DNA of 64,000 nt, taken from the NCBI GenBank assembly GCA_029964075.1, contig CM057142.1:38876392-38940391 (forward strand). The letters are read 5' to 3'. The translations under genes were made by a program, and so were the position numbers. Shown piece after piece: positions 5,574-63,133 of this stretch (its first letter is position 1; each line of letters starts with the position of its first letter). A model generated the notes under the pieces. The model saw nothing but the letters and a program-made list of their open reading frames with translations, did not search any database and was not told the DNA's origin. The stretch is from Patiria pectinifera. Lineage: Eukaryota; Echinodermata; Asteroidea; Valvatida; Asterinidae.

Positions 5574-6311
5574 ATGGCGTGGTTTACACCGAGCTCTCCT
5601 TGCATACTCTTTTTGATCTCCGCAAGTTTACTACGTTCACAGGCCCTCCCCGCATCATGCCCGCCTGGCTGGCTCGAATGGCATCAGTCTTGTTATATCT
5701 TACTCCCTGACAAGATGAATTGGTTTGAGGCCTCGGAGGCTTGTAACCGGCCGGGAAGCAGCCTCGTTGTGCCCAATTCACGAGAGGAAAACCTCTTCAT
5801 CTGGAAGTCGATGGTGGAAGGCGTTGAAGGTCTGTGGATTGGCTGTACGGACGCGGCTCAAGAGGGTGTCTGGTTGTGTGGGGGTCAGGCTGCACAATAC
5901 ACCAACTGGGCTGTAGGTTTTCCAAGCGTCAATGACAAGATGAACTGTGCCCGTATAACAGTTTACAATGAAGGACGTTGGCGCCATGATGTACCATGCG
6001 ATATCACCAATAATCGCAAATCGGCAGCCTGTGAGATGCCGGTTTTTGCGGCACCAGCCTACCACACCTTCTCCGGTCCCGCCGGGCGTGTCCCCCAGCA
6101 ATGCCTCCTCCACCACGACATCAAAAATCTGACGGTGAAGGGCGTGCTTGCCTGTGGCTGGGCGTGCCGTGCCGCTCCTCGATGCCGCTCCTTTAATCTT
6201 TGGCAGGGCAGCAAGCGAGAAAAGACGTGTCAACTCAATGACGTCACTCGTCTTGGAGCTGATCGTATCGACTTCGCGGCTGTTAACGACTGTTACTACT
6301 TTGACTTGTAA
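5574..6311 (+). CDS. Secreted C-type lectin-like domain + PAN/apple domain protein, single exon
   Basis: Intronless frame of 245 residues. The ATG at 5574 is the first true ATG; a few in-frame non-ATG codons precede it. A hydrophobic signal peptide covers about residues 1-24 and ends near RSQALPAS. A C-type lectin-like domain follows (about 28-158): CPPGWLEWHQSCY, then WIGCTD, then GRWRHDVPC, with the usual conserved cysteines. The Ca-binding EPN/QPD motif is not visible, and the usual WND is replaced by W-R-H-D, so classical calcium-dependent sugar binding is doubtful. Residues about 165-245 look like a PAN/apple domain (QCLLHHDI, LACGWACRAAPRCRSFNLW, CQLNDV, NDCYYF). Likely an extracellular recognition or adhesion protein. 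It ends 20 nt before an AATAAA. Confidence 0.9.
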   Translation: MAWFTPSSPCILFLISASLLRSQALPASCPPGWLEWHQSCYILLPDKMNWFEASEACNRPGSSLVVPNSREENLFIWKSMVEGVEGLWIGCTDAAQEGVWLCGGQAAQYTNWAVGFPSVNDKMNCARITVYNEGRWRHDVPCDITNNRKSAACEMPVFAAPAYHTFSGPAGRVPQQCLLHHDIKNLTVKGVLACGWACRAAPRCRSFNLWQGSKREKTCQLNDVTRLGADRIDFAAVNDCYYFDL

Positions 6312-19732: not shown

Positions 19733-20110
19733 ACCACCATACTACATGTCACGTGCACCTACAAATGTCAGTATACGTCGCCGACATCGAACAGTCTTAC
19801 ACGAAATCCACGAATCCAACCGAATCTTCAGTCCGTATTTCAACCTCTGTCGCTCATGAAAGCCCCTATTTTGTCTCTGGAAATGAGCACCGTTGTTCGA
19901 ACATTATCAACCGCATCATCAACACAGGTTGCCTTTTGCCGCGGCGGACCCGACATGTACCGTGCGGAGTGTGTATGTACGGCAGGGAGACAGTCTAATG
20001 AATTACTAATGCGATCGAGCTGACGTCACATAGTGAGCAATGACGCAAACGACGAGGGAACAAACAGCGGCCATGGCGAATTCATCAGTCTGCGTTGCTA
20101 TCTACTGCTG
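19733..20110 (-). promoter_or_regulatory. Candidate promoter region of the F-box gene
   Basis: The segment upstream of the F-box ATG is GC- and CpG-richer than its surroundings. It holds a perfect CRE palindrome, TGACGTCA, at 20021-20028, about 290 bp upstream of the start codon, and a gccatggcg block near 20070. No TATA box is evident. Assignment rests on position and composition only. Confidence 0.3.
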
Positions 20111-23897: not shown

Positions 23898-24052
23898 TTA
23901 TCGTCGTCGGCGCCGTCCCCGCATCGGACTGTCTTGGCACGTTGCACAGCAGTAAGTGTCGTAAGGCTTCTTGTGGCAAAAGTTGGCGCGAAGGACCACG
24001 CGGCAGTTGGCGTACACGTTGTTATCTTTACAGTTGGGATCAACGGCCGCGC
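23898..24052 (-). CDS. PAPLN-like: Papilin-like exon 32: C-terminal PLAC domain and stop
   Basis: Encodes about 50 residues with six cysteines in PLAC spacing (DPNC, YANC, ANFC, YCC, ATC) and a basic tail of consecutive arginines before the TAA at 23898-23900. PLAC is the C-terminal module of papilin, lacunin and several ADAMTS proteins. The acceptor is ccag at 24056-24053, phase 1. The basic tail could bind heparan sulfate (inference). Confidence 0.9.
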
Positions 24053-27000
24053 CTGGATTAAAACAGACAAAGCAACGAATGAATGATTTGCATGGCAAGC
24101 ACAAAAGTACATTAGCCTTTTTGAGATATGGCTGAAACAATAAGAGGCTGCTGTTTGATTTGGGTAAAGTCTTTTTATATTTGTATTTACCCAAACCAAA
24201 CAGCGCCCTCATCAAGGGCGGATCCAGGAATTTTTGCAGGGGGGGTGTTTCATCGGCAAAACATTCTGAAATATAGACAGGTTTTTTCTCTGGACATTTT
24301 GCCTCCGAAATTCAATAGGTGGGGGGGGGGGGGGCACTGTTCAAATCCGACGATTATTAACACTATATCACAGAATAGTGACAAATACCCCCTAACTAAG
24401 CTGGCTCTGTCCGTATTTTGTGCAAACGCAGACATTATTACCAGTAAAAAATTGTTTTGGTGTCGCAGCAGGGGGGTTCTCTTTTTTTTTAACCCCCCCC
24501 CAGATCCGCGCCTGCTCATACTGTGTCTGTCATATCTCAAATTGGAATAAGAATAGAAGGATAATCATAAAGAATTCTTTAATAAAAAGAAGGAATCTGA
24601 CAGGAAAATAAATGAGGAAAACAACAGCAACAAATGTGACATGTTATATAAGACCGAAGATCCATGTGTTTGTTTTCGTTGTGCACAATTGTGCTGTGTT
24701 AACCAGTTGGGTATCCGTGATGCGTACTCTGAAATTCCATGTGTACATATTTCTCTGCACACTTGGCAGACTTTAACGCTCAAATAGAGAGAATGAAGCA
24801 GTTTTGCAAGTAAAAATGAAACCTTAGTCAAATTTCAAATTGATCAGCTTTGGCAAAGTACACATTTTACTAAACGAACATTTAAAAGTTAAAATCAAGG
24901 TAGGCCTGAATTTTTCTCCATAGGATTCACATACAAACTGTTTTCTTTTTAGGCCAACCATTTAATATTTATCGTTTACCCCTCCATTTCATCGTTTTTT
25001 TTTTTAAGTTACAGGCAACAAATCTTGATCCTGTTCAATCGCTACCCGAAGTGTATACAATTTTCAATGGACAACGCAGTTAGGATAACGCAATGCACAA
25101 TGGAGGTATGACTTGCTTATTGAACAATTGTTTTTAATGCATCACGTACTACGCTTTCCGCACACATGGATTTTTTGGCCTTACACAATCTGTAATCAAT
25201 CCTGTTTCTTAAAAAACAAAAAACAAATCTGTCACAGACAGAAAGTTTGAGCTTGAAATCAGTATTAAAGGGAAAATACAACATTTGCAAACATCAAAAA
25301 ATAAAACTACCAAATCATTTTGAAATACCTTGCTGGACTGTTAGTGAATGACAGTGTAAAGCATCCTGTAAAATCATGGCACCTGGTATACTGTCATTTT
25401 CAAGAAAAGTGGTATTTTTGTATCAATTTTCCAACGCTGATCGGCCGATCAGCGTTGGAAACAACTGGCTTTTTTTCAAATACTGGCCCCAATTGACCAT
25501 CGCACTTGTTTGCAATCGATTACAAACCTATGAACGGGTACGAGCCAGCTAGACTGGTTCCCTGACCTTACAATTCCCCAATGTATGTAAACTGCTCCGT
25601 TTCTTCTTATATGGAGTCAGGGAACCAGACTACAGGAAAATGATCGCTTTTCTTGGTTTTTATAGCATTTTCGAACCCAAAACCTCAAAAAAGTCAGTGT
25701 AACTATATTTGCTATATATTTCCAACCCCCTTATTCCATACATTTCTGAAAATTACAGCAAAAGCAAATGATGTATATTGCCTTTAAATGACTTACCCAG
25801 GACAGTGACTGTAGCCCTAGCACTGTGACTTGAGATACCATTGGCTGCAGTGCATGTATACGTACCAGCATCGGTGCTTCTCAGACCTGGAACATTAAAC
25901 AGTTCAAGGCAAAGACATATCATACAACGTTGCAATAAAGAGGGATTTCTGGCAATCATACCCAACTGCAGGATATTTCTGATGAGAAGTCATGTAGTGT
26001 TTCAAAAAGGCATGACAACTATGTGCACACACGCCCAAATACGGCTTTGTGGAGTCCTAAAATGCTGGTTAAGAGCCGTTCTTCAGAAATTGAACCTAAC
26101 TTATTTTTGGGGAAAAAAAAGAAGGTTTTATTAGGCCAAAAAAAAAAAGTCTCCGGTTTCTGGTATGCGCGCGCGTCGCCGTAGCCATGCGTGTCGGCCA
26201 AATAAAAAAGTTTTTTTTTCAATAAAAGATGATGTCTCAAAACCGCCAAACTCCCTGGTTTGACTGGAATCCTGCTGCTGCACAATTTTAACGTGTTTTC
26301 AGATGGGGGTTATGATCGAGAATAAGCTTTATGTGGCCTCTCCGGACTCCCATATATTTGCACTAAGTTTAGTCGGGCACCATTTGCATTCATCAGCCGA
26401 CATTTGAAGCAAAAAAGACAGGTAAAAAAAAAAAAAAAGCCGCGTCGCCGCACCACTTTTTGGGCAAGCTCCATACCAGAAACCGGAGACTTTTTTTTTT
26501 GTGGCCTTATGTGATGTAATACAAGTGATTATTGTTTACTTAAATGTTGCTGGTAAGTCAAGATGCAAATGTCTTAAGAAGTTTTATAAGTTGGTCTTTC
26601 CGTGCATAAGGTAGCATAATTTTAATTACAAAATGTCACACACGTGACTGATCAAAATGTCACGCACGTGACTACAGAACAAATCCCATTTAATAAACCT
26701 AAAGCAGAGGGTGTACATTGTTTATGCATTCTGTAAATCACAAAAGACTAGCCTTACTCCAAAATAAGTATGGGCGTGTGTGTCCTTAGAAATTGGAGAA
26801 AAGCGTGAATTTCCGGTATGGGCCGTATAACATTTTTCGTCTGAAGTCATACACTTGACCAAACTTTGATGACCCCTCCTAATATTTGGACACAATTTGT
26901 AAAAGTAGAACTATACTCTGAGGTAGGGAGTAAAAAGTACTAACCTAATGAATCAGTAAAAGTAATATGTCAGATGAAGTTAACAAGGGGTAAAACTTCA

Positions 27001-30000
27001 AAAATCAGACGAGCCCAATTTTATGTCACAGTGACCAAAGAATGGCCCTCAAGAGATTAATTTGGACTTATATTTTTACCCATGAAATCTGGACCTCTTC
27101 TTTTTGGCTTTTATTATTATTTTTTTTTGGGGGGGGGGACCTGGGATTGTGTAATGGGAGTGTTCAGACCCCCCACCCCTCCCCGTTGCTACGCCCTTGA
27201 ATACACTCAGGTTAACAATGCCAACCTACCATTGATAATGAGATCCCCGGTGGACAAGAACTCAAAGCGGTCCATGGGAGGGAGCCCTACGTTGTTAACC
27301 GTCCAGCGGGTAGTGGGCTTGGGTGAGCCTGTGCTGCCACAAGACAGCCGGACAGTGGCTCCTACGTCAGCTGTAACATCCTGGGGCACGTTCACAATCT
27401 GCACCTCCGCTGTACAGGTACAACAAAACAAATGTGCTTCTGTTTAGTCATTATTATAACGGCACTCAGTATGTGTAATTATGAAGATGATTCCTGAACA
27501 AGTAAAGGTGGCAGCCCACTAATGCCAATTTGAATGCTTAAATTGAGCAAAATATGACTTATTTCAACAAAAAGCATAAGAAACTGAGTTTTGAAACTCT
27601 TTTTTGTATATATGGCTTTGGCTTGAGGAGAGCTGGCAAGGGACTTGAGGGACTTCAGCTCAATAATGGTCCATAACTGAAGAGTTATGCGGAGGATAAG
27701 GCCAAAAAAATAATAAGTCGGTCTCTGGTCAGCGCGCGCATCGATTTTAATCATGCGCGTCAATCTTTTTTTTCCTCCAAAATTATCCGCGGTAGCTCCA
27801 ACAGCGCCCTCTATTGCCGCACCTCCTCAATTTTTTTTTACCAAAGAGCACCAAGGAATGGGAAATCGCACCAAGGCAAATGATCGAAAGCACCAAGGCA
27901 AATTATGGAGGACACCAATGTACATGAGGACACCAAAAAAGCAAAATAGTACCCCACCTTGTCTGTACAATCCAAGGTTGAAGAAAAAAAAAAAAAGCCG
28001 CGTCGCCGCGTCAATTCCGGAACTTTGGTCTGACCAGAGACCGAATATTTATTTTTTTAGGCCTATACCGAGTGCCTGATTTACCTTCCACTGTTAGAGT
28101 CACTGTCTTCTTCTGCACAGTGCCAAACATGTTGCGTCCAGTGCAGACGTAGTTGCCCGCATCGCCCAGCTCTACGTTTTCTATGCGTAGCGTGTCGTCA
28201 TCCAGCTGGGTCATGCGGGGGTCGTTGCCGGGCAGGAAGGCCACGCCTTGCATCCAGGTCACCACGGGTTTGGGGTTGCCCGTCGCCTGGCATTGCAGCT
28301 CCACAACATCCCCTTCCTTGGCCCGCACAGAATGCTGGCTGGTCTCGGGAATTTGCACTGGTGCTGTCAAACAAAAGATTGTCACACAACTGTTATAAAG
28401 TTACCGTAATTGTGACCCAACCCAACAAAGTAGGTCAGAAGTCTTTAACAAGTTCACATCGGATCACATGTATACACGCGAATGTTTTGCGGTATTCGTA
28501 ACGGATGACGAATAAACACGCAACGAGCTAGGCCGGAAATATCTGTGTGCGACCCGCTCGCAGCGAGCGAGGCTGGAAATATCAGGGTGTGCTACCCACA
28601 GATGACAGCATGAACCCGTCTGGCATCAAGGTTCGTGAAAAACATTCCCGCGCCTGGGTCCGGTCAATGGTAATTCCGTTACTCATCAGTCAAAAGGATT
28701 ACCTCTTATGGTCAGAGTGATCTTTCCCCTAAGGATGTGTGTTTACCGTTGCCAACCCGAGGAATCGAGCCTACATTTCCGACATGTTCATTTTTTTTTT
28801 TTACCTGGCGTTTGCCACAGTAAACACACATGCTTAGGGGAAAGATCAATATGCCCAAAAGAAGTAATCCTTCTGACTGATGAGTAACACAATTAGCAAG
28901 TGACAATTGTCCATAAGACTCGTTTTGGTCAAGGAGGAACTCCTTGGCCATTCTCCCAACCTTGGCTTCGTCTTTAGGAACAGCTCCACATCAACCTCCG
29001 GAATAAGTTTTAAGAAATTACTGCACAACCAAATAAATGTTACTCCAAATGTCAGATGATTGTATGTTGTTCTGTAGCAAAAAATGCAACTGGAGTGTGC
29101 TAGCTTTTGAAACAATTTACCCGGTAGCTGGAGCCTACAGCTCATGCTGGAGATGAGCCAAGCTTATGACGCCTCAACATTTACAAGTGCTCAAGGCACC
29201 GTTATGCACAAGCCTGAAAGAACCACTTTTTACTTGGCCAGAGTTGTATAGTTCAGTACTTTTCAAATACTGAATTTATTTCTAAATATTCAGCTGGTTG
29301 TATATCAAAGCCAGAGGGTTGTGGTGCAAAGGTTACGCAGCTGAGCTGTTTTCCCTAAAAGAAGGTCAAGTCTGAAGTCTTTGATTTACTGTTAAGTCTG
29401 CTGAAGCATTAATTAAGCAATGTCCATGCTCTATATGGCTTTATTCACATAAAGCTAGCTAAGTATTTGGCAATAAAGTCAATGAGTACTCAAAAAAGAT
29501 GCCGACAACACTGACTGGCTGCCATGGAATAATCCACATAAAATGCACTATGCCTTCTATAGACCGCTTGCAGATGCGTTCGATAATCGACGCGCGAAGG
29601 CGCGCAACGCCATGTTGTGGGACAAGCGCATATCTATCCATGCACATTTTGTCCCACAACATGGCGTCGCGCACCTTCGCGCATCAATTATCGAACGCGT
29701 CTGCAAGCGGTCTATTGACTTTATGCACTATTACCCCTCAACACAGAGATACAGCGGGCACATGAACGTCACTGCCATCTGCACTCTTGCGAAAATGCTA
29801 CCAATGAATACCCATTTGTGAAACAGTGTGAGCATAGTGTGTCCCACATATTGGGAGTTTTGACACTTGTAGGATATTCACATAAAGGATATGGTAACCC
29901 ACAAGGACAACTCTACCAAAGGCATTCAAACTGCCACAAGAAGATCTTGCCACTTTTTGAATTTTTTAATTAAAAAAAAATGCTATTGGGATATTAAGTT

Positions 30001-33000
30001 GATGATCTAATATTCGGTATATTCGGCAAAGCTAGTCCTACTAATGTTCCTCTATGGTGTCAATAAGCTGAGCTTAAGTGCTGAGCCAATAATACTTACT
30101 GAAGACATCTACGTCCACGGCAACCTTGGCAGCCTGTCCCACTCCATTGGACGCCCTGCAGACATACGGTCCAGCGTCTGCCTCCATTACATCCTCGATG
30201 ACCAACGAGCCATCCTCACTCACGCTAATCCTGCTGTCCCTAGCAGACGTGATGTCTGCATCGTTACGATGCCACGTGATGGACGGGGTGGGGTTACCCT
30301 GGGCACGGCAGGAAATAGTCAGGGTACCGCCTAAGATCACTGTGGAATCTGAGGGGGCCACTTCCACCATGGCTGGGGTGACACCTGTACATGACAGGGA
30401 ATATTGAAATCAGGCAACTCTTGTTACTTACCTTTCAAAATAGGGTTCTTAGTGAAGGGTACTAAGTGTGCCTATGAATTCAGGGACAATTGGCTGAACA
30501 GTAGTTGATTCATGGTGCAAGTTTTGCCGCAGTGCTGATATTATTAGTGCAAACTACGGTCAAATGTCACCACAGAACGTCTTGATTCTGGTTCCCTGTT
30601 GTGCATTGCAATCAGCACGGCTGTTGATAACTGGGCTGGTCTGTCTAAATAGTCGTCCAGACTTCTCCATTGTCAATTAGCGCGTGCATTTGGTGTGAGA
30701 ACATGTAAGTCAAACGATTGGTTTTCATGTTTTTTTCTCAGCAGGAAAATTTGCCAATTAGTATAAATTATTGCTAAGCAGCTCTGTGAAATGGATCATT
30801 CCTGATTCAGTCACAAGCCCCCCCCCCTTTCCTCTGTGCCTTTGACCGGCTTTGCCCGAGCTACCACAGGGCCGGAGTAAGTGTTCCGTAGGCCCTAGGC
30901 ACCATGGTTCTGTAGGCCCTACTCTGCCCTAGGCACCGGCACCAATGTTGATGCTAAGCTTTCCTAAGCATACCAGGCCAAACTGGTATCTCCAAGAGCC
31001 TGTTGGCACCGTGCTTCAGAACGACAACCTTATGAGTAAATTTTGTACGTACATGTTCATGCAGTTAAGCCAGCGTCAGTTGGTGAAATCGAAATTTCTG
31101 ACAGAGACACTAATAGCTTTTCTCGTGTCCGTAGGTGTTGCTGTGGGTGTATGTGTTTTATGGTACATTGCGGTATTTTCGTAGGCCCTCAAATTTTTGT
31201 AGGCCCTACATTTTTCGTAGGCCCTAGGCACAATGCCTATTGTGCCTATTGGATAATACTGTACGCAATTGACAAAAAGTCATCATCTAATAATTCAATG
31301 AATGACAGGCAGTATAGAGGTCAAAATTGGGCCAAGCAGCTCACCTGGGCATCCGAAGCGATCTTCCCTGCTGGCTTGGGTGACGCCGTCAGGGCAGCAG
31401 CCAAACGTTGACGTAGCACAGCCCTCATCACCTAATGGATGGCTAGGGCTCAGAGTCACGCCATCGGTAGGCTCAGTGGCATTACTCACAGGCTCATAAG
31501 CCGTGGTTGTGCTGTTCTCGTAGAAGGCTATTTGGGGGAAAAATAGGACCCTTTATTTCTACAAGTGTGAATTCTCCTAAGGCTGTAGTGATGGAAGATC
31601 TAGAACTATACCCAGTATAACTGGGATGCTAGAACTGCTTTTTGAAAGTTTGGTTTTGATTGGTCATACTAGCGCCATGGCGTAATAAGCATAACACTGG
31701 ATTTCATAATTTGCCAAACATAGGTTATAGGGTCCAAATCTACGCTGCATGTGCTATATATCAACTTGGGATATGTTACAGACTGTAAGCAGCTGTTACT
31801 TGAGCTTCCTTGTTGACAGGATGATTATCCACATCCTGTTGCGAAACTGGCTAGACTCACCAAAAGGATTTAATTGTGGTTCTTGTCAGAGGAGTTAATG
31901 TTTGGCTAGGATTTTTAGGGTCAATAGTTCAACCCAAGCTAAGGGACACTCACCAGGCTATTTGGCTATGTTTGAATGAGGAACTTGTGAAATATACCAG
32001 AAAATGTCGGCGTAATTAAAAAATTAAGCAAACCGGACTTGATTTTAGAGCTGAATGGGTCGGCGGAGGGTTCTGAGTGAGATGACTCCTTACCATCACA
32101 ATCCGGTCGGGCCCTTGGTTCCTTGGGAATACTGCTGACAATCTCTTCCCCAGTCATCTCGTCCACACACCAGCAGTAACCAGTGCTTGCGTGGCACTGC
32201 AGCCTGGTAAACAGACCTTCAGCTGTGCACTGCGGTACAAAGTTGCCAACGATGGTTTGGGCCTGGGCATGCTGTCTGGTCACCAGGCAGAGCGAGACGG
32301 GCTCGGAGGTTGTGGTTACTGAGGGAGGAAGGGAGGAAAGATGTACAACATCACAAAAGGATCTTCAAGACAAATCACCCGTATGTGTTCCGTGATTCGT
32401 TGTCAGATAGTAATAATGTAATTGGGGGTGTGCAATGGCAAGAAAATATTTCTGCTTTCAATAATTCACAAGAAAGATGTTTTAGCACAAACATAATTCA
32501 TCAGCTATTGCCTTGATATGCACAGAAATTGCTGTGCATGCAGCTTTGAATATTGAAAAAAAATGTGGAAAAAATGAAACAAAAATAAAAGGTGGGCAAA
32601 CAAAGTGGCAACGTTGAAAACAACTTCTCTGTGTTTCACTTTTGCTTTCGTGCAGGGCTATAATTTGATCGTTACAACTGTGGCATCTCCTATGTAGGAA
32701 ATCTGGCCAAGTTATAAGCAGTCATTTATCATATTAGACAACTTATACATGTGATCTAAAAGTTTGCATTACCTTGCACCGTGCAGGATCGCTCACATTC
32801 CTCTCGGCTTTCAAATCGGTTGCCGTTGCCTTGGCAACCACCATAGATGAATTGCTGGCACGCCCGTTCCTCAGTGTCATAGTACCACATGGCAAAGTAG
32901 GCCAGGCAAGGCCCGGTGGCCTTAGGGAAACTACACATATCTATTTGGAAGGTAAAAATGAAAAATCATAGTACCTCGATCTTTACTACTGTGGCAGTTA

Positions 33001-57000: not shown

Positions 57001-60000
57001 GAGTTTACATCGTCCTCCAGAATCTGGGGGATTTTCTGATTTCAAAAACATTCCCAAATCATTCTCAGTCAAAGCTTGACCAACTTTATACTAATAAACA
57101 CATGATGGTCCGAGCACTGTACCTATACTTGAGTATTTGTTTATTCAAATTTGATTCAATTGAGATTTAATTTTGACAATATTGTGGATTAATCAATAGG
57201 TTATGATGATTTGAAACTTGAACCCAGGGGCGTGTTTACATTTCTGGTTCTCAATGGAATTGCTTTTTGTATTCCAGGGACCCACTGACATAAAAGGACA
57301 ATGATTCTTCAAATGAGGTTTTTGTTTTTGCAACAGCCCTCCAGTCTGCCACCCCCCCCCCCCCCCCCCCTAGATCTGGATCGACCGATGGAATGTCAAT
57401 GCTCACCCAACGTTTCTCCCTCGCATCCCTGTCCATCTGGTCCTGAGGCTGCGTTTGTGCTATTCGCACAGCAACCAAAGGTGGAATCAGCACATGTAGG
57501 GATGGCGGTTGAAGAAGGTACAGTTGTAGGAGACTCACTCGTACTGTTTAACAAAGGAAAGGCAAAAATAACCACTGTTTCATGTAATATTATAAGTTAT
57601 CCCGCGAGCGCGAGTGGAACACGGAATAATGTAGTGCATCTGCGTCCCACATACCACGAGGCCGAAGGTGATAACGCATTTATCTTCAAGCAAACTTGAC
57701 ACACAGTAAAGATGGAACACACACGCTGTACACAAACTTTTCAGCAGTTATCCCATTGCATGTGCGTGTTGTACAGAATGGCACTCGCATCTTAGAAAAG
57801 CGCAATACGCGGAGTGCGGTATGGACCGAGGCCGTGCTACATGGTTATATGTAACACGGCTTGTTGCCATGGATCGACCAATCATTATCGAGGATTCAAC
57901 TTTACATGAAGATAAGAATATTACTTCATATTGCAGAAAAGCTGATGAGTATATGTTTACAGATGCCGTGCGATGATGAACTTCCCAAAATGGCTTATCC
58001 CCCAGCAACCATCGGAGTCGGACATTCATCATCACGCGACTGACTATAAGCCGACTTTTAGTTTGTCACAAGCACACTATGATCGGGGTATTGGGGAAGC
58101 GTTTAATCTGAGCAGGGTGCATGAACAGTAACTGACCTGGTAACACAGCCATCCTGGTCGGGTCCGGTCGCCTCGGTGATTCCATCTGGGCAACACCCAT
58201 GGGTTGAGCTCTCACAATCCCCTAAATCCAATCAAACCAAAATCACATTCACATTTTGTCCAACTTGATCAAAAACAGGCACTGTAATCCCATGGACCCC
58301 ACGAAAGCTCCATGTCCAAGACAAATAGCATGCACTGTTGCCGTGCATATGGACAGCATAAACCTGAGGCTTCTGAGAGTGAACTGTCAGACAAGGGACT
58401 GTTTCAACTCATTCACTTAGTTTTTTTTTGTCAACAAGAGTCGCACCATTATGGAGCCCCTGCCTGAAATAGATATGAAATTTGATTAAAACAACAACAA
58501 CATATTCAATTCAATTCAATTCAATTCAATTCAATTCAATCACAACGCTTATTTCCATACTTTTGCTGTAGTAAATTCCTCCCTTTCTTGTATTAAATGG
58601 TCCAACCATGCAACCGGTGTGTGGTTAATAAAAGACTTTGTTGCGTGCAGCTTGTTTCTTTTCTTTTCGTTTAAATGATCTATTACGTATTCGCGGTATA
58701 AAAACAAGAAGCGCTACCCACGCAGGCACAGGCACTCTGCTCTACGCCAGCGATCAACAACGACAGCAATTTTAGCAACATTAATTGTACATTTAGTTTA
58801 TTTTAATCTTCAACTCTGTGGGCTCCGATACTGGCTAGGTGGCGTTTGCTCCTCACAGAGGAAGAGTCCACATAGTTGTCTACTAGAAGCCTCGGCAGTT
58901 TCCAGGAAATCTTCTATATATTTTGGTAAGCCTCGGCAGTTGCGAGCACAGCTTTTATTAATTTAGTAAGCCTCGGCAAAAGCAGGCCAACTTTATCACT
59001 AAATAACCTCAGCAAGTGCCTGGTACAAGTTTATCAAATATTAATCATACCACTAAACTTTCCAGATGTAAATCAATTTAAGTTAGCAAATAAAACGAAG
59101 TAATAATACATATCTGAAAGTATAAACGGCTTAAGATATTAAATGAAGGTGAATAGTGTGGGGCTGTTCATATTATTATAAGCCGAGGCTTGTAGAGATC
59201 TTACACAGACAGACAATTTAGGACAATCTACACAGACAATTAGGATAAACACGAAAACAAACAAACAAAGAGAAAACAGGACAAACCAAAAACAAAACAA
59301 AAAAAGACGAGACGGGACAATCAAGACAGACCACACTAAATCAAGAGAAGCATCAAATATGGAAATAGATATTGTATTCAACTAAATAATAATAATAATA
59401 ATTTGGGAGGCTAATCATCCTTACTCACAGCTGGTATGCTGAATTGCGAAGGACGCGGCTACAACGTGGTCGGGCCGCTGGCACGTAAAGGCGCCTATGG
59501 CTGCCGGCCACATCGACCCATATATGACCACGGAGCATAGCCTGAGATCGAAAGTGTTTGATTTTTCCGAAGGGAGGAAAATCGGAGGGCCCGGAGAAAA
59601 ACCCTCGTGGCACAGGAGAGAACCAACGCACAACTCTACTCACAGTTACATGTGGTCCGCGGCCAGGATTCGAACCGTGGTCACCTTGGTGAGAGGCGAG
59701 CGCTTTACGCACAAGCCACCCATGCCACCCCCTAAAGTGATTGAATGGTCAAGGACTGATGACAGTTAGACGGTATTCTAATGAACAGAGAAGTGAACAA
59801 CTTAGCTAACCTTCTCCACCATCGCAGGGCTGGGTGTTGCAATACTCTTGCTCGATTGGCTGGCTCGTCATGTCACACTGGGAACCGTCCAATGAAGTCC
59901 CGTCCCTGAAACACAGGATCTGCCGTGTCCTCTGTCCTCCCCCACACTTGGCTGAACACTAATCAAATATAATCGAGAAGTTAAAGTTAAGCTCTTCTGG

Positions 60001-63000
60001 TGGTGCACTGTAAATCAGCACAAGAAAAATGGCTTGAATCGTTAAAAGCTGGAGACGACAGGCTGCTGTAACTACTCAATGTTAATAATGACATAATGAC
60101 ATCAGGCTCTGTCTATATGTGCATTTTCCTTTGAGCCAGGTGTGGACGAGATGCCTTCATATACACTGTAAATAAAGCATGACGTCATTATGTCTCGGAC
60201 CTACCGTATGACAGTGGAACAGGTAAAAAAAAAACACTGGTTATGTGGGAAAATGAAAAATCAACGACATATTCGGCATAGGGTGTGAGGTCGTCGAAGC
60301 CTGGAACATTACCTAGGGTCTATGGTACATGCAAGTATTTGCCTCAGGATACCCCTAGAAAAAGATGACAATTGCTTTTTTCCATATAAACCATTGATTT
60401 GTGCTGTGTTTCATACAAAAACAAATCGTCGCGTCAGTGCAACACGGTCATAACTCAATTCTGCGCAAATATCGGTGCACTCCATCCTACAACGTGGTAT
60501 CTCGCGTATCGCGACGTCCTATCTCGCGTATCGCGACGTCAATGGACTTTGTGTGAACATCTGGGTTGTTTTAATCAAGAAATGACCTTTTGACATTGAA
60601 AACTCGTGTTTCACGTACATGACGCGACACGCCATTTAAGGGGATACGACCTTGTTGAACGGGCACGACAAAATAATAAAGATGGAGAAACCTTCATGGT
60701 AAGACCTCAAAAGTTCTGCAATTCAAAAGAATTTTTTTTTGTTAATCAGGCAATCCGGTAAAAATCTGGAGAAATCTTATCCTTGATATGCAAAAATAGG
60801 CATTAACAAAAATCATGAGAGTTTCATACAGATGTGGAAAACTGGTTTGCCCTTGATTCAGCATCGTACCTTTTGCCAGGGTCCAGTCAACCACACAGCT
60901 CCCACGCACGGTCCGTTGTCGCAAACCTCCGAGGTGGACAGTTTGATGGTGGCATTGCACATGCCGTCCGAGGTGGTCTCCCATTGGTCGTTCACAAAAT
61001 GAGCACAGAAGACGTTCCTAATGCGTAGGCCCTGCCCGCAATCTGTAGAACACTGCACAGCAAAATACAATACAGGTTTTTGTATGCTGCGAAAGCCAAA
61101 CACAGGGCCCGTTTTCCTGCACTTACAAAAAGTTTTAATAGATAGTAGTTGTAATATTACATCATGTATTGGGCATTCGGCAGGATAGCCCACAAAAGTC
61201 TTGCAATGTATTTACAGTGGAGTCACTTCACTAATAGTAAATATGGAGGAAGGAAATTGCAATTTCATAGACGGAAGGGAAAAAACACCATAGTATTGTA
61301 GGGAAAAGCAAAAGAATCAGGTAGGAACTGAAAACCAAATCCTGATGTTGGCCCAGCAGAATTGATTTTAAAAGTTTTTTTTTAATTTTTTTTTTTTTAA
61401 ATTTGACTTTGAGTGATTGTTGCCTACCCCTGATGTTTTTTATCTTGTTTTTTTGTGGTGGGGGGGGGGGGGAGTCATGGGATTACTTTTTTCTGTCAAA
61501 ACATCAAGTAATAATTCAGGAAATTTCAACTCTCTTGTTAAAACTTATGTACCAATTTTATGAAACTCTAGTCAATCAAACAAAGCAAAGGAATAATAAG
61601 GAGGCTTTTTGGTTGGAATAGACCATATAACAGTTCGAAAATGTATTAATACAAATAGTTTCGCATTTGGGGTTCACAACTTTAACCAGGGATTAGATGA
61701 CAAAGTATCGGTTGGTTTACCTCAGTCCAACGAGAGGCATGCCACAGAGGGCGGCAAGCCTGCCTGGATGAACAGCGCTGGGTGGTAGCCGGCCGTAGAC
61801 CAGCATCACAGATATCCTCGCTGTACAAGGTACCTGATGGTCCCATGCAGTGTACTTGCCTGGTCTGAATGCCTTCACCACACTGGTCAGAACACTAGTA
61901 AAAGAACAAAAGTGGCGTCAATGCAATGCCATTATGAATGACAGAGAGAAGCATTTCACAAGGTTGTATTGATAAGCACAGCAAGAACTATACCCGTTGG
62001 TTTGAATGTTGGTTGATATTTTCTTCACAGCTTAAACTATTTATCCCGCAATTATAATTGTAGCATTAAGCACAGTGTACATGTACAGTTTTAGACTGAA
62101 GTTCAACGAATGTTGCAATTCAGTTGAAAGTGATATTTCAACGCTATAAACCAAAGAAAACTAACCCAACAGAACAAACCGTTACATTTCCACTCGGACA
62201 AGTTGGAGTTACATATATACGGTACATGTAAGTTGTTCACAGAGGATACACTTTAGAAACAATTTGAACAAATTAAAATAAATGAAGTATTAAATTATCT
62301 TACACCTGTTTCAGCCTGGAAGAACCAGAGTCGCGACGTAACATAAAATACTGAAACTGACTCAGTTACACCCAAATACAATTCAGTTTCAAAAAGGCAG
62401 ACTTCATGCATTACTATTTCATTCGCTGATACAACAATGCTCACTTCCAACAACGGCAACAGCCGATCTTTTCGATGTCTTGCCCATGTAGTGAATACCG
62501 GAAGTCGCTCATAACTGTTTCAAATAGCCAACGTACTAAACTCTGGAATGCAAGACTCGAAACAGTTGTAACATTATATTGGCATTCCACAATCTCATAC
62601 TGTTGTTCCTTGACCCACTTCTGCACTTTCCTGTCCCACAATCCGACGTTAGTTCCGGAGGGCTCACACTATCTAGACCCTTCTACCATGCCATCCCCCC
62701 CTCTTCATCCACAAAAGAAATTGAACCATCTTTTAGCAACCTTAAGCATCCTCTTCCTAATAGTTATTGAACTTTGTCCCCTTCCCTCTTTAATAAAAAA
62801 AATAGAAATTTTCCTGTAACCAGCTCTTGTTTCTCCAATAAAAAAGGTCCAGATGATCCTAGAATACTTTGACAGCTATACTTGTATGCACCACCAAAAG
62901 GATGTTAAAAAAACCCTGGCCAGTCGAGACGTGATCAGAGACAAGATCCCGAGGGGACTTACATCAGACCACTGGGTTGCCAGCCACTGCACCTCCTCGC

Positions 63001-63133
63001 ATGGCCCCATGTGACACGCCTTCTGGCTGTCTGGTAGGGTTTCGATGGTACATTTGGTGTCGGCAAGGGCCTCCTCCCCAGAGCTGCAGGAGACTTGTCG
63101 GGTCTGGATACCGCGCCCGCAGGTGACTGAGCA
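23898..63133 (-). CDS. PAPLN-like: Giant papilin-like protein with ten Kunitz and ten thyroglobulin type-1 domains (32 exons, 5' end outside window)
   Basis: Secreted extracellular-matrix protein; 2076 residues are readable in the window, and the signal peptide and N-terminal cassette lie beyond the right edge. Joined exons, N to C: 63133-62963, 61894-61721, 61052-60870, 59958-59811 (TSP1); 58221-58137, 57543-57407 (GCC cassettes); 56748-56560, 55651-55478, 54650-54441, 53155-52985, 52444-52274 (Kunitz); 51166-50951, 49678-49451, 48200-47988, 47396-47172, 46134-45934 (Tg1); 44978-44817 K, 43624-43154 T, 42117-41950 K, 41453-41250 T, 38330-38163 K, 37729-37511 T, 35137-34970 K, 33645-33436 T, 32940-32773 K, 32318-32094 T; 31527-31345 cassette; 30384-30100, 28363-28085, 27409-27230, 25886-25797 (Ig); 24052-23898 (PLAC). 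Every junction keeps frame; total length is 6231 nt. TSP1, Kunitz, Ig and PLAC in this order define papilin; Tg1 domains are not part of the fly, worm or mammalian papilins I know. Confidence 0.85.
24209..24516. mobile_element. Inverted-repeat element with poly-G/C flanks
   Basis: The left end reads aagggcggatccagg followed by a G run. The right end has a C run followed by ccagatccgcgcctg. Ends and layout resemble 1157-1436 and 7183-7508. It lies in the intron between the PLAC and last Ig exons. Confidence 0.5.
25265..25788. mobile_element. Two-copy element with a 28-nt perfect palindrome, copy A
   Basis: About 520 bp. It starts taaagggaaaataca and ends atattgccttta, which are weak inverted ends. 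It shares its whole length with copy B at 53743-54246. It contains a perfect palindrome at 25431-25458 and a second inverted pair (tagactggttccctgac ... gtcagggaaccagacta). The right end stops about 8 bp from the donor site of exon 31. Confidence 0.75.
25797..25886 (-). CDS. PAPLN-like: Papilin-like exon 31: second half of Ig domain 3
   Basis: A 90-bp phase 1-1 exon encoding LRSTDAGTYTCTAANGIS and the G strand, i.e. the F-strand cysteine part of an I-set Ig domain. It is the only Ig domain in the gene split by an intron. Donor gtaag, acceptor ttccag. Confidence 0.88.
26131..26508. mobile_element. TAAGGCC-family MITE, copy 2
   Basis: Same orientation and interior as copy 1 (8432-8804), with small indels. 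The terminal inverted blocks gtctccggtttctggtatg and cataccagaaaccggagac are intact. It sits in the intron that splits Ig domain 3. Confidence 0.8.
27230..27409 (-). CDS. PAPLN-like: Papilin-like exon 30: first half of Ig domain 3
   Basis: A 180-bp phase 1-1 exon encoding VPQDVTADVGATVRLSC, then the tryptophan strand (PTTRWTVNN), to DLIING. It joins exon 31 in frame to complete an I-set Ig domain of about 90 residues. Donor gtaggt, acceptor gtacag. Confidence 0.88.
27697..28065. mobile_element. TAAGGCC-family MITE, copy 3 (diverged)
   Basis: Begins taaggccaaaa and ends with a T run plus aggccta. The inner inverted pair is gtcggtctctggtcag with ctgaccagagacc. It shares the gccgcgtcgccgcg block with copies 1 and 2, but most of the interior differs. 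It ends 19 bp from the donor of exon 29. Confidence 0.7.
28085..28363 (-). CDS. PAPLN-like: Papilin-like exon 29: Ig domain 2
   Basis: A whole I-set Ig domain on one 279-bp phase 1-1 exon. B-strand cysteine in VVELQCQATGNPKP, tryptophan in VVTWMQG, and DAGNYVCTGRN at the F strand. Donor gtaaat, acceptor gacag. Confidence 0.9.
28445..28670. mobile_element. TTAACCAGTTC element, copy 1 (partial right end)
   Basis: Matches 46885-47136 over about 220 bp, including gtatacacgc, ggaaatatcagggtgtgct, tgaacccgtctggcatc and cgcgcctgggtccggtcaat. The left end (ttaacaagttcac) is present. The right inverted end is missing or replaced by the neighbouring hairpin element. Confidence 0.65.
28678..28888. mobile_element. 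Foldback element (~210 bp)
   Basis: The left arm runs gttactcatcagtcaaaagg ... gatctttcccctaa. The right arm mirrors it with ttaggggaaagatc ... ccttctgactgatgagtaac. The arms are about 65 nt with few mismatches. It abuts the truncated element on its left. Confidence 0.65.
29559..29715. mobile_element. 157-bp near-perfect hairpin MITE
   Basis: The arms start atagaccgcttgcaga and end tctgcaagcggtctat. Pairing continues through gcgttcgataat and the gccatgttgtgggacaa block to a loop of about 25 nt. Almost the whole element is inverted repeat. Confidence 0.75.
30100..30384 (-). CDS. PAPLN-like: Papilin-like exon 28: Ig domain 1
   Basis: A 285-bp phase 1-1 exon with one I-set Ig domain: GGTLTISCRAQGNPTPSITW and EADAGPYVCRASNGVG. 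Donor gtaagt, acceptor gtacag. This is the first domain after the inhibitor array and the third cassette. Confidence 0.9.
31345..31527 (-). CDS. PAPLN-like: Papilin-like exon 27: linker and third GCC cassette
   Basis: A 61-residue phase 1-1 exon. A Thr/Ser-containing linker (FYENSTTTAYEPVSNATEP) leads to CATSTFGCCPDGVTQ ... GCPG, the short four-cysteine motif also seen in exons 5 and 6. Papilins carry such C-x-S-x-x-GCCPDG segments near their Kunitz region. Confidence 0.85.
32094..32318 (-). CDS. PAPLN-like: Papilin-like exon 26: Tg1 domain 10
   Basis: A 75-residue phase 1-1 exon. Thyroglobulin type-1 hallmarks: FVPQCTAEG, LQCH, GYCWCVDEMTGEE and a closing PDCDG. Last of ten Tg1 domains and second half of the fifth Kunitz-Tg1 pair. 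Confidence 0.92.
32773..32940 (-). CDS. PAPLN-like: Papilin-like exon 25: Kunitz domain 10
   Basis: A 168-bp phase 1-1 exon holding a complete Kunitz/BPTI domain with six cysteines (MCSFPKATGPC, YGGCQGNGNRF, ECERSC). The P1 residue after the second cysteine is Leu, which does not suggest trypsin specificity. Confidence 0.93.
33436..33645 (-). CDS. PAPLN-like: Papilin-like exon 24: Tg1 domain 9
   Basis: A 70-residue phase 1-1 exon. Motifs CQMQREEALAN, RFVPECTEDG, QCHGSTGQCWCV and LVDCDG. Forms a pair with Kunitz 9. Confidence 0.92.
34970..35137 (-). CDS. PAPLN-like: Papilin-like exon 23: Kunitz domain 9
   Basis: A 168-bp phase 1-1 exon with a complete Kunitz domain (KCSFPKFVGPCRAD, YGGCGGNMNQF, ECQQAC). 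P1 is Arg, compatible with inhibition of trypsin-like proteases (inference). Confidence 0.93.
35168..35725. mobile_element. Composite double-foldback element, copy 1
   Basis: Two adjacent hairpins. The first (35168-35335) pairs atattgaatgcttcgagtgg with the inverse near 35315, around a central cccgagg. The second (35336-35725) is bounded by tataacactacacccacag and ctgtgggtgaggtgttata. The same pair, in the same order, recurs at 48225-48779, so both halves move or amplify together. Confidence 0.75.
35821..36271. mobile_element. 451-bp MITE-like element
   Basis: The left end, atatgtgacctgctccacaa plus aagggtatta, is mirrored at the right by taataccctttt plus ttgtggagccggtcacatat-type sequence. 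The arms are about 37 nt. The interior is AT-rich and non-coding. Confidence 0.7.
36384..36825. mobile_element. MITE-like element with TTAACCCTGCG ends
   Basis: Starts ttaaccctgcgcag and ends cacgcagggttaa. Further inverted sub-blocks occur inside (cgtacctttgggacgcagg and ctgtgtacccggggtacgcagg are related). About 440 bp. Confidence 0.6.
36839..36866 (+). repeat. AGTC microsatellite
   Basis: Seven near-perfect tetranucleotide units of agtc. Confidence 0.9.
37057..37128 (-). tRNA. tRNA-Asn(GTT)-like pseudogene or SINE head
   Basis: On the minus strand 72 nt align with tRNA layout: 7-bp acceptor stem with one mismatch, D arm gctcagttggtagagc, GTT at the anticodon place, and T loop ttcaaac with one mismatch in its stem. 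The anticodon stem is badly mispaired, so a functional tRNA is unlikely. The A and B boxes remain recognisable. Confidence 0.5.
37511..37729 (-). CDS. PAPLN-like: Papilin-like exon 22: Tg1 domain 8
   Basis: A 73-residue phase 1-1 exon. Motifs VCEIQREEALSS, LFVPQCTSEG, QCYDLIGQCWCVNEDG and PLDCNG. It is closest to Tg1 6 by eye (CEIQR.EAL, VCWCV/QCWCV, QGGT, PLDC), suggesting recent duplication. Confidence 0.92.
38163..38330 (-). CDS. PAPLN-like: Papilin-like exon 21: Kunitz domain 8
   Basis: A 168-bp phase 1-1 exon, complete Kunitz domain (VCRLPKYSGPCRGS, YGGCQGNGNRF, ECHQAC). P1 is Arg. Confidence 0.93.
38885..40252. repeat. Tandem array with alternating 146/174-bp units, ending in a CA tract
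   Basis: The block tttagccatattgacc recurs near 38965, 39110, 39282, 39428, 39602, 39748, 39922 and 40068. Spacing alternates about 146 and 174 bp, a 320-bp higher-order dimer repeated three times. The long unit has an extra tgtttacgttatcataatg insert. Each unit carries attgaccttgacctttgacc or a variant. The array ends in cacacac/cccacac repeats (40212-40252). It lies in the intron between Kunitz 8 and Tg1 7. Confidence 0.9.
40835..41210. mobile_element. Foldback element (~376 bp)
   Basis: The left arm, ttcaaattcgggcgattcac plus aatgcagtgcgcca, is mirrored by tggcgcactgcatt plus gtgaatcgcccgaattgaa. Pairing extends through the gagtttgcca and ggagag blocks. It lies 39 bp from exon 20. Confidence 0.7.
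41250..41453 (-). CDS. PAPLN-like: Papilin-like exon 20: Tg1 domain 7
   Basis: A 68-residue phase 1-1 exon. Motifs TTCTEKRKMVLARG, FIPKCTEDGQY, QCHGSIGHCWCVDEEG and LLDCDG. Pairs with Kunitz 7. Confidence 0.92.
41524..41739. mobile_element. Foldback element (~216 bp)
   Basis: Arms acttttcaagttac ... gttttaaacacaaccaccgt and acggtggttgtgtttaaaac ... gtaacttgaaaagt. A second inner pair is tctttcagcaaaac with attttgctgaaaga. Nearly all of it is inverted repeat. Confidence 0.75.
41950..42117 (-). CDS. PAPLN-like: Papilin-like exon 19: Kunitz domain 7 (P1 proline)
   Basis: A 168-bp phase 1-1 exon with all six cysteines (VCSMPEFRGQCPDN, YSGCQGNMNQF, TCEQTC). The residue after the second cysteine is Pro, and the usual YGGC is YSGC. 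A Pro at P1 makes canonical serine-protease inhibition unlikely. Confidence 0.92.
43154..43624 (-). CDS. PAPLN-like: Papilin-like exon 18: Ser/Thr-rich linker and Tg1 domain 6
   Basis: Longest exon in the gene (157 residues, phase 1-1). The first ~90 residues are Ser/Thr/Pro-rich (PEPTTEPTTVSSTTSAS, STTPEPSSALPSTT and similar), a likely mucin-type O-glycosylated spacer. A standard Tg1 follows: MCEIQRKEALAN, VFIPQCEEDG, VCWCVHPDG and PLDCQG. The spacer could act as a hinge in the paired Kunitz-Tg1 half of the protein. Confidence 0.9.
43899..44606. mobile_element. 690-bp long-TIR element with 9-bp target duplication (Mutator-like)
   Basis: The element is 43908-44597. The arms (43908-44086 and 44431-44597) are inverted repeats of about 170-180 nt beginning tagccttggtca. 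A perfect 9-bp duplication, acctcttac, flanks it at 43899-43907 and 44598-44606. Long arms with a 9-bp duplication are typical of Mutator-like elements. There is no transposase inside, so it is non-autonomous. Confidence 0.85.
44817..44978 (-). CDS. PAPLN-like: Papilin-like exon 17: Kunitz domain 6
   Basis: A 54-residue phase 1-1 exon with a complete Kunitz domain (VCILPKVTGPCRGY, YGGCQGNANRF, ACLMTC). P1 is Arg. Six bases shorter than the other paired Kunitz exons because the tail after the last cysteine is short. Confidence 0.93.
45127..45719. mobile_element. ~590-bp foldback element
   Basis: Outer arms gcccaggttggac and gtccaacctgggc. Inner pairing covers gtgtccagaatt, aaaaggcaaatatgtccgtg, gcggcgtgtttaccgaaaat, and gaaaacattttcagtacgaa. 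Loop near 45420. Arm length is about 250 nt with scattered differences. Confidence 0.75.
45934..46134 (-). CDS. PAPLN-like: Papilin-like exon 16: Tg1 domain 5
   Basis: A 67-residue phase 1-1 exon. Motifs CRVIREEALSSG, GYIPQCTEEG, QCQGGTGNCWCVDENG, TGTRRGPG and VDCEG. Last of the five consecutive Tg1 domains. Confidence 0.92.
46885..47136. mobile_element. TTAACCAGTTC element, copy 2 (complete)
   Basis: Starts ttaaccagttcac and ends gcgaactggttaa. About 250 bp. It is the full version of the partial copy at 28445-28670. TTAA at both ends could be a target duplication or part of the inverted repeat. Confidence 0.75.
47172..47396 (-). CDS. PAPLN-like: Papilin-like exon 15: Tg1 domain 4
   Basis: A 75-residue phase 1-1 exon. 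Motifs CQLHRNSVLAREE, RYVPQCTEAG, QCYGDTGHCWCANDMG, DGTRKRPG and PDCTG. The usual CWCV is CWCA. Confidence 0.92.
47988..48200 (-). CDS. PAPLN-like: Papilin-like exon 14: Tg1 domain 3 (atypical)
   Basis: A 71-residue phase 1-1 exon. Cysteine pattern kept (GPCPS, YQPICTPDG, VQCDG, CLCV, DACNG), but the signature CWCV is CLCV and the G-x-R-x-x-PG segment is lost. Likely a diverged Tg1 with altered loops. Confidence 0.85.
48225..48779. mobile_element. Composite double-foldback element, copy 2
   Basis: Direct copy of 35168-35725, with both hairpins in the same order and a few small indels and substitutions. It lies in the intron between Tg1 2 and Tg1 3. Confidence 0.75.
49451..49678 (-). CDS. PAPLN-like: Papilin-like exon 13: Tg1 domain 2
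   Basis: A 76-residue phase 1-1 exon. Motifs TTCQRHLKQVQG, QYVPQCTETG, QCYGSTGYCWCVNENG, DGTRRGPG and NCDG. Donor gtaagc. Confidence 0.92.
50537..50806 (+). mobile_element. tRNA-derived SINE, copy 1, with an inverted partner at 50444-50520
   Basis: Contains an A-box-like tRNA head (gctcggtggtcgagtggtaa) and a tail with cactcaggaggtaacacact and gggcaaaacctaatttgaat. The tail sequence also occurs inverted at 50444-50520, separated by an A run. A second copy with a better-kept B box lies at 53462-53665. Confidence 0.65.
50951..51166 (-). CDS. PAPLN-like: Papilin-like exon 12: Tg1 domain 1
   Basis: A 72-residue phase 1-1 exon. Motifs ITKCLRSRNYATYV, AFIPQCTLDG, QCHGSSGYCWCVDMDG and RPDCEG. The donor, gttggt, is weaker than the others. 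First Tg1 after the Kunitz block. Confidence 0.9.
51669..52173. repeat. Three-copy tandem repeat, ~165-180 bp units
   Basis: Units start near 51669, 51848 and 52010 with ctgcttc plus an attaacaa block, then gcatgcgggtgacgtatttc, ccactgactc, ggtggctggtcagg and aggctaacccgagttgaccc. Unit 1 carries an internal 20-bp duplication of acgaggctaacccgagttga. The array lies exactly between the last consecutive Kunitz exon and the first Tg1 exon. Confidence 0.88.
52274..52444 (-). CDS. PAPLN-like: Papilin-like exon 11: Kunitz domain 5
   Basis: A 57-residue phase 1-1 exon (KCSLPVTTGPCFGY, YGGCQGNDNRF, ACDQEC), six cysteines. P1 is Phe, suggesting a chymotrypsin-like or other non-trypsin target. Confidence 0.93.
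52985..53155 (-). CDS. PAPLN-like: Papilin-like exon 10: Kunitz domain 4
   Basis: A 57-residue phase 1-1 exon (VCGLPKDHGPCRES, YGGCLGNDNRF, TCTQAC). P1 is Arg. Two nested phase-1 donors are possible; I chose gtaggt at 52985, while gtggta at 52988 would drop one residue. Confidence 0.92.
53462..53665 (+). mobile_element. tRNA-derived SINE, copy 2
   Basis: The head contains tagctcggtgatcgagtggt (A box) and gatttgagtcc (B box) within about 65 nt. The tail shares tttcactcagg, gtaacacacc and gggcaaaacctaatt with copy 1. Confidence 0.7.
53743..54246. mobile_element. Two-copy element with a 28-nt perfect palindrome, copy B
   Basis: Direct copy of 25265-25788. Its palindrome, 53891-53918, is also perfect but differs from copy A at four positions that form two pairs. 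Shared blocks include aaataaaactaccaa, gacagt, tagactggttccct and gagtcagggaaccagactac. Confidence 0.78.
54441..54650 (-). CDS. PAPLN-like: Papilin-like exon 9: Kunitz domain 3
   Basis: A 70-residue phase 1-1 exon (PCTLPQDPGNCFEI, YTGCLGNPNRF, ICEERC) with a 17-residue tail. P1 is Phe, and YTGC replaces YGGC. Confidence 0.92.
55478..55651 (-). CDS. PAPLN-like: Papilin-like exon 8: Kunitz domain 2
   Basis: A 58-residue phase 1-1 exon (LCSLPAEVGPCKAS, YGGCHGNMNKF, ECDIKC). P1 is Lys, compatible with trypsin- or plasmin-like targets (inference). Confidence 0.93.
55720..56527. mobile_element. Element with duplicated left end and AAGACG-type inverted ends
   Basis: A block containing ctcgtcttatcttgcgactc, atctcaggacttaagacggg and cttagctaagacgc occurs twice in tandem (about 126-bp spacing, 55725-55985). 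The right part (56400-56527) carries inverse-type sequence, gcgagttaagacgagt and aagacacgtcttag. It looks like a MITE whose left end duplicated. Confidence 0.6.
56560..56748 (-). CDS. PAPLN-like: Papilin-like exon 7: Kunitz domain 1
   Basis: A 63-residue phase 1-1 exon (TCEMDFDDGTCFAF, YGGCEGNANRF, ECQSVC). P1 is Phe. The acidic loop before the second cysteine (DFDDG) is unlike the other nine domains. First of five consecutive Kunitz domains. Confidence 0.92.
57407..57543 (-). CDS. PAPLN-like: Papilin-like exon 6: Ser/Thr linker and second GCC cassette
   Basis: 137 bp, enters in phase 2 and leaves in phase 1. After a Ser/Thr/Pro stretch (SESPTTVPSSTAIPT) it encodes CADSTFGCCANSTN ... GPDGQGCEGETL. 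The usual CPDG is changed to CANS. Donor gtgagc, acceptor aaacag. Confidence 0.8.
58137..58221 (-). CDS. PAPLN-like: Papilin-like exon 5: first GCC cassette
   Basis: 85 bp, enters in phase 1 and leaves in phase 2. Encodes DCESSTHGCCPDGITE ... GPDQDGCV. This is the clearest copy of the C-x-S-x-x-GCCPDG ... GC motif. Too short to stand out as an open frame; found from splice phase and motif. Confidence 0.82.
58505..58549 (+). repeat. TTCAA microsatellite
   Basis: Nine perfect pentanucleotide units. Confidence 0.95.
58889..59195. repeat. Interspersed AAGCCTCGGCA short repeats
   Basis: The 11-mer aagcctcggca or a close variant occurs near 58889, 58930 and 58969, and once inverted near 59181 (agccgaggctt), with AT-rich sequence between. 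Probably a decayed tandem or foldback element. Confidence 0.5.
59450..59735 (-). mobile_element. tRNA-derived SINE (minus strand)
   Basis: The minus strand shows a tRNA-like head with a perfect B box ggttcgaatcc (59666-59676) and gcgctcgcctctcacc at the anticodon region. A body with ctcctgtgccacgagggttt and tccgggccctcc follows. It is unrelated to the other SINE pair. Confidence 0.65.
59811..59958 (-). CDS. PAPLN-like: Papilin-like exon 4: TSP1 repeat 4
   Basis: 148 bp, phase 0 in and 1 out. CSAKCGGGQRTRQILC ... EYCNTQPC; its tryptophan part is at the end of exon 3. Last TSP1 in the window. Donor gttagc. Confidence 0.88.
60870..61052 (-). CDS. PAPLN-like: Papilin-like exon 3: TSP1 repeat 3
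   Basis: 61 residues, phase 0-0. CSTDCGQGLRIRNVFC ... EVCDNGPC, followed by VWLTGPWQK, the start of repeat 4. Donor gtacga, acceptor gtgcag. Confidence 0.9.
61721..61894 (-). CDS. PAPLN-like: Papilin-like exon 2: TSP1 repeat 2
   Basis: 58 residues, phase 0-0. CSDQCGEGIQTRQVHC ... CSSRQAC, followed by LWHASRWTE, the start of repeat 3. Donor gtaaac, acceptor actag. Confidence 0.88.
62963..63133 (-). CDS. PAPLN-like: Papilin-like exon 1 in window: TSP1 repeat 1 (start outside)
   Basis: 57 residues, phase 0-0. CSVTCGRGIQTRQVSC ... KACHMGPC, then VQWLATQWSD, which begins repeat 2. Its own tryptophan segment must be on an upstream exon beyond 64000. Donor gtaagt, acceptor ctacag. Confidence 0.9.

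Follow-up and report, generated by a model that had tools for sequence, protein, structure and literature searches.

The minus strand of the window (the whole 64-kb stretch of DNA analysed here) carries 32 exons of a papilin gene, which run from 63133 down to a stop codon at 23898 and splice in a single frame. Within the window they encode four TSP1 domains, two Cys-rich repeats, five Kunitz domains, five thyroglobulin type-1 (Tg1) domains, five alternating Kunitz-Tg1 pairs, a further Cys-rich repeat, three Ig domains, and a PLAC domain, in that order. A preliminary description had claimed such an in-phase series of 32 exons, with ten Kunitz and ten Tg1 domains mixed in one reading frame. All 32 do occur in the stated order on that strand, with AG/GT borders and a stop-free frame, and Pfam bears out the mixture on the joined protein, giving 5+5 of each domain above cut-off. 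The exons are given below with their positions in the window; all rest on the exon model and, unless marked otherwise, on Pfam as well. We number the Kunitz modules K1 to K10 and the Tg1 modules T1 to T10.

62963-63133, minus: exon, TSP1 module a (Trp part on outside exon at 65159)
61721-61894, minus: exon, TSP1 module b
60870-61052, minus: exon, TSP1 module c
59811-59958, minus: exon, TSP1 module d
58137-58221, minus: exon, Cys-rich GCCPDG repeat 1 (the cassette of the preliminary description); no Pfam match
57407-57543, minus: exon, Cys-rich GCCANS repeat 2; no Pfam match
56560-56748, minus: Kunitz 1, P1 = F
55478-55651, minus: Kunitz 2, P1 = K
54441-54650, minus: Kunitz 3, P1 = F, donor picked for frame
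52985-53155, minus: Kunitz 4, P1 = R
52274-52444, minus: Kunitz 5, P1 = F
50951-51166, minus: Tg1 1 (CWCV)
49451-49678, minus: Tg1 2 (CWCV)
47988-48200, minus: Tg1 3, divergent (CLCV)
47172-47396, minus: Tg1 4 (CWCA)
45934-46134, minus: Tg1 5 (CWCV)
44817-44978, minus: Kunitz 6, P1 = R
43154-43624, minus: Ser/Thr-rich linker and Tg1 6 (CWCV)
41950-42117, minus: Kunitz 7, P1 = P, probably non-inhibitory, donor picked for frame
41250-41453, minus: Tg1 7 (CWCV); top single-domain PDB match, among the matches listed, is saxiphilin
38163-38330, minus: Kunitz 8, P1 = R
37511-37729, minus: Tg1 8 (CWCV)
34970-35137, minus: Kunitz 9, P1 = R
33436-33645, minus: Tg1 9 (CWCV)
32773-32940, minus: Kunitz 10, P1 = L
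32094-32318, minus: Tg1 10 (CWCV)
31345-31527, minus: linker and Cys-rich GCCPDG repeat 3; no Pfam match
30100-30384, minus: Ig 1 (I-set)
28085-28363, minus: Ig 2 (I-set)
27230-27409, minus: Ig 3, first half
25797-25886, minus: Ig 3, second half
23898-24052, minus: PLAC domain, basic tail RGRRRRR, stop TAA 23898-23900

The neighbourhood holds further coding frames: a nucleotide-sugar transferase (PF03407) at 3681-4631, a C-type lectin with a PAN domain at 5556-6308, an LRR frame at 12622-13704, and an F-box frame at 18620-19741. Within the gene, the intron between T7 and K8 contains a tandem repeat of about 320 bp (38955-40203; 3.9 copies, 91% matches), and a single dispersed repeat occupies intron sequence at 35162-35681 and 48220-48735, where it is 93% and 89% identical to a copy near 347.3 kb of sequence C18.

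Gene model and papilin identity

The full predicted chain comprises 40 exons, 32 of them inside the window, and every junction pairs an AG acceptor with a GT donor and keeps the phase. Its frame is free of stops over 2473 codons, against 58 and 122 stops in the other two frames of the identical exons, and its GC content by codon position (0.546, 0.513, and 0.625) compares with 0.396 for the introns. A strict signature scan of both strands returned 12 segments, all 12 on the minus strand. To build the model, minus-strand segments were listed, splice sites were ranked by a simple splice score, and acceptors and donors were then picked. For the Kunitz and Tg1 exons the top-scoring acceptor was used in 20 of 20 cases and the top-scoring donor in 18 of 20, the donors of K3 and K7 being picked to keep the frame. 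The longest intron measures 2919 bp in the Kunitz/Tg1 array and 6119 bp in the whole model. At its 3' end the gene closes with a TAA codon (23898-23900) directly after the basic tail RGRRRRR (23898-23919).

The position 63133, taken in the preliminary description as the start, proved to be an exon edge and not the edge of the gene. Eight extra in-phase exons lie further upstream, at window-relative positions 65159-84836, so that the gene extends 20.8 kb past the window. One TSP1 module spans the 65159/63133 junction, with its Cys part on the 63133 exon and its Trp part (WTTGNWSQ) on the exon at 65372-65159; this module a and the third Ig module are complete only after splicing. According to Pfam, the upstream exons encode more TSP1 domains as well as the ADAMTS cysteine-rich and spacer domains. 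Several of their splice sites were picked for frame and the spacer exon has a low-scoring donor (72181), while the Pfam profiles are covered only in part (spacer positions 39-115, cysteine-rich positions 26-115); an exon may therefore be missing or mis-bordered there, and this upstream part of the model is less certain than the rest. The search for a first exon yielded just one, weak candidate for a signal-peptide exon, at 126104. The predicted protein is at least 2473 aa long.

For the Pfam scan the joined protein was cut in three pieces, and all families named here exceed the cut-off. Kunitz_BPTI matched in 5+5 stretches (4e-91 and 3.3e-89), as did Thyroglobulin_1 (1.3e-78 and 4e-74), alongside three I-set matches, PLAC (1.3e-6), TSP1_ADAMTS (2.9e-77), and TSP_1 in seven stretches. 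ADAMTS_spacer1 (4e-11) and ADAMTS_CR_3 (3.2e-7) each matched over part of the profile. Searching the whole genome without a gene model placed 10 of at least 34 Tg1 matches and 10 of at least 28 Kunitz matches inside the window, which makes up 0.01% of the 613.5-Mb genome. The Cys-rich repeats with a GCC motif, two of which lie between TSP1 and Kunitz domains and the third before the Ig domains, had no Pfam match; they may correspond to the lagrin-type repeats of papilin. No WAP match was obtained in the joined protein, nor any match to a protease family, the first exons lying outside that scan. An HExxHxxG metalloprotease motif was likewise absent from the six frames of 133.6 kb, in a scan run without a positive control and for a motif that an intron could split.

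The gene is a true papilin of the ADAMTS-like family, because further TSP1, ADAMTS cysteine-rich, and spacer domains are found on its upstream exons. The papilin-like identity proposed earlier is thus strengthened by domains situated just beyond the window edge. As a prediction from genomic sequence, the gene and its architecture as described here are almost certainly correct.

Origin of the Kunitz/Tg1 array

Five of the ten Tg1 modules form one block and the other five alternate with Kunitz domains; each of the ten has a phase 1-1 exon to itself. In the model, this phase is shared by 20 of 20 Kunitz and Tg1 exons, and likewise by Cys-rich repeat 3, the two exons that each encode a whole Ig domain, and the two that each encode half of one. 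Symmetric phase 1-1 exons can be inserted without shifting the frame, and the gene is a clear case of them; the uniform phase of the array fits exon shuffling and tandem growth. Tg1 exons would have entered an ancestral papilin via exon shuffling; tandem duplication would then have raised their number, in part by copying a Kunitz-Tg1 pair as one unit.

A tree of 23 Tg1 domains was computed from the ten papilin domains, which also supplied the profile, and 13 of the 24 other Tg1 domains reported from the genome (the fetched loci). The papilin domains cluster in it, requiring 2 label changes where shuffling gave a mean of 7.6, and none of 500 shuffles gave an equally low number. The papilin Tg1 domains may still have a single origin, although 0% of 200 bootstrap trees showed one. 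Four of the alternating modules, T6, T7, T8, and T9, form a group (90/81), within which T6, T8, and T9 (96/80) and then T6 and T8 (99/92) come together. The last alternating module, T10, joins T1 (93/88) apart from T6-T9, which argues against a simple five-fold duplication of one Kunitz-Tg1 unit. The Kunitz tree gave no resolved branching order.

The array looks old, because its Tg1 modules share just 24-54% identity with T7. This age would also suit a more prosaic reading, in which sea stars or echinoderms ordinarily have a papilin of this kind, and annotation pipelines have already predicted it without any discussion in print; automatic gene models would normally come with a chromosome-scale assembly. 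Set against this is the literature searched, which covered few subscription journals and in its accessible parts yielded no description of a papilin with Tg1 domains. We rate the chances of this reading as about even.

Inhibitor features and possible function

Papilin is a conserved basement-membrane protein in which the role of the inhibitor modules is not settled, and the addition of Tg1 to its Kunitz array amounts to a natural experiment on that array's purpose. All ten Kunitz domains have one exact Cys spacing in common, following the BPTI cysteine pattern. Their P1 residues are, in order, F, K, F, R, F, R, P, R, R, and L, that is, R/K in five of the ten, F/L in four, and P in one, so that nine carry a usable-looking P1. 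In BPTI inhibitors, R or K at P1 suits trypsin-like targets and F or L chymotrypsin- or elastase-like ones, whereas a Pro is probably inactive; by its sequence, K7 is probably non-inhibitory. Among the Tg1 modules the CWC core is kept in nine of ten, T3 carrying CLC instead.

When T7 was compared with the PDB, 16 sequences matched. Over whole chains the top match is thyroglobulin (2.7e-57), a protein with many such repeats. Among the matches listed, the top single-domain match is saxiphilin with 61.2 bits; p41 from the cathepsin L complex (1icf) reaches 47.2 bits, thyroglobulin's best repeat 30.4 bits, and the IGFBPs 27 bits or less. In the accessible part of PMC7863939, p41, equistatin, and saxiphilin are reported as inhibitors of papain-like proteases, Tg1 itself being described as a motif that just occasionally serves as an inhibitor.

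In the mechanism that we propose, the TSP1, spacer, and PLAC parts would regulate ADAMTS enzymes and give the protein its anchorage in the matrix, while the Kunitz/Tg1 array in the middle would act as a multivalent tethered inhibitor. Kunitz domains with R or K at P1 would target trypsin-like enzymes and those with F or L chymotrypsin- or elastase-like ones; some Tg1 modules would be directed at papain-like cathepsins. These two halves differ in strength. Excerpts of a preprint (PMC11844652) report non-competitive inhibition of procollagen N-proteinase by fly papilin, with the cassette alone also inhibiting, and a worm papilin that still functions in neuronal maintenance without its Kunitz region. 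Because of these fly and worm data, anchoring in the matrix via the TSP1/spacer part is likely and dual inhibition possible. That the array might inhibit both serine and cysteine proteases, a proposal drawn from its sequence, seems to us rather doubtful; the missing CWC core of T3, the Pro P1 of K7, and the fact that thyroglobulin is no model of an inhibitor would all count against it.

Alternatively, the Tg1 modules could be structural spacers, ligand binders, or sacrificial substrates, and only the Kunitz domains, or only the papilin cassette, would matter. Such a reading agrees with the independence of worm neuronal maintenance from the Kunitz region, with the place of thyroglobulin at the top of the whole-chain matches of T7, and with the Tg1 domains of nidogen, IGFBPs, and TROP2, for which the accessible text of PMC7863939 gives no demonstrated inhibitory role. 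It sits less well with the single-domain ranking of T7 (saxiphilin before p41, thyroglobulin, and the IGFBPs, among the matches listed) and with the ten Tg1 copies, five of them alternating with Kunitz, which suggest selection for module number. We give this alternative a substantial probability, somewhat short of even.

As a whole, the locus is in our opinion best explained by one papilin gene with a Kunitz/Tg1 array, its proposed origin and inhibitor function included, and we hold this account to be rather probable. The narrower proposal is that, in an echinoderm lineage, Tg1 exons were inserted among the Kunitz exons and amplified, and that papilin thereby became a matrix-tethered inhibitor acting on two classes of protease; we offer it as a speculation that is more apt to fail than to hold. 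If true, it would provide a tissue-anchored brake on serine proteases and cathepsins, perhaps of use in mutable connective tissue, in regeneration, or in feeding by gut eversion. Since the modules are encoded by single exons, each can be produced and assayed individually. For a sea cucumber, the accessible part of PMC3735544, a table that gives no domains for the protein, has papilin RNA much less abundant in regenerating intestine than in controls, with an inferred order of stages.

Related loci and known systems

Two or more adjacent genes wrongly joined, namely a papilin gene and an independent gene for a Kunitz/Tg1 inhibitor, would have a counterpart in the separate Tg1/Kunitz region elsewhere in the genome (C18:325-334 kb), but this is very improbable for an array that is flanked by papilin hallmarks (ADAMTS spacer and TSP1 on its N-terminal side, Ig and PLAC on its C-terminal side) and shares phase and strand with the flanking papilin exons across small introns. 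Two genes at the locus are thus unlikely, and we retain the single papilin gene.

The region on C18 (318758-345113) combines seven Tg1 exons with a single Kunitz exon, all on the same strand at 325-334 kb; an EGF exon lies some 6 kb upstream. Of six pieces of the region scanned with Pfam, four gave no match. This mosaic resembles the papilin gene in combining Tg1 and Kunitz but differs in its nearby EGF exon and in the lack of a listed PLAC, none of the seven PLAC matches listed for the genome falling on C18. Another three Kunitz exons lie on an unplaced contig of 25 kb (C625:10442-12623). We rejected this contig as a haplotype copy of the papilin gene, because its exons share only 49-55% identity with K2, K4, and K5.

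Apart from the protease inhibitors, a genome search for homeodomains (36 matches) revealed an ordered Hox cluster at C15:14.265-14.703 Mb. Of the 25 fetched loci 15 were read, one of them a partial match with no readable domain. We take the order to be Hox11/13c, 11/13b, 11/13a, 9/10, 8, 7, 5, 4, 3, 2 (the partial match), and 1, with the second posterior gene, taken as Hox11/13b, inverted. By signature there would be four posterior Hox genes, Hox4 would be present, and Hox6 is apparently absent. On C7, genes that we take to be Gsx and Xlox lie about 63 kb apart, followed by a third, unread homeodomain match 16 kb further on. Having four posterior Hox genes would place the animal in Ambulacraria, and a sea star would suit the apparent loss of Hox6, the retention of Hox4, and the tight ParaHox group; the species is thus probably a sea star. 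Searches for COX1 and for GFP gave no match, and since the control for GFP gave none either, the latter result carries little weight.

With the thyropins (equistatin, the p41 fragment, and saxiphilin), the Tg1 modules share the fold and the CWC core, and T7 matches both saxiphilin and p41. To our knowledge, these thyropins are not matrix scaffolds with Kunitz modules.

The closest relatives in architecture are Drosophila papilin, C. elegans MIG-6, and vertebrate PAPLN, which, in the accessible portions of PMC11844652 and PMC5309989, share with the present gene an N-terminal part with TSP1, ADAMTS cysteine-rich, and spacer domains, together with the Cys-rich repeats, several Kunitz domains, Ig domains, and PLAC that also occur here. 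WAP domains are reported for the papilins of flies and annelids, and deuterostome papilins are reported to lack them; unlike the former, the present protein has no WAP match. The ten Tg1 modules set it apart, as the accessible literature mentions none for fly, worm, or moth papilins. The moth Plutella xylostella offers both halves of the comparison (PMC5309989, in part): its papilin-like PxSPI42 is listed with Kunitz, WAP, TSP1, IGc2, spacer, and PLAC and with no TY (Tg1), whereas PxSPI44 joins Kunitz and TY in one chain, as here, its listed domains being just Kunitz, WAP, antistasin, TY, and WR1. Because PxSPI44 has both, a chain with Kunitz and Tg1 domains is already known, as is papilin itself; Tg1 as an added module type in a papilin did not appear in the literature accessible to the search.
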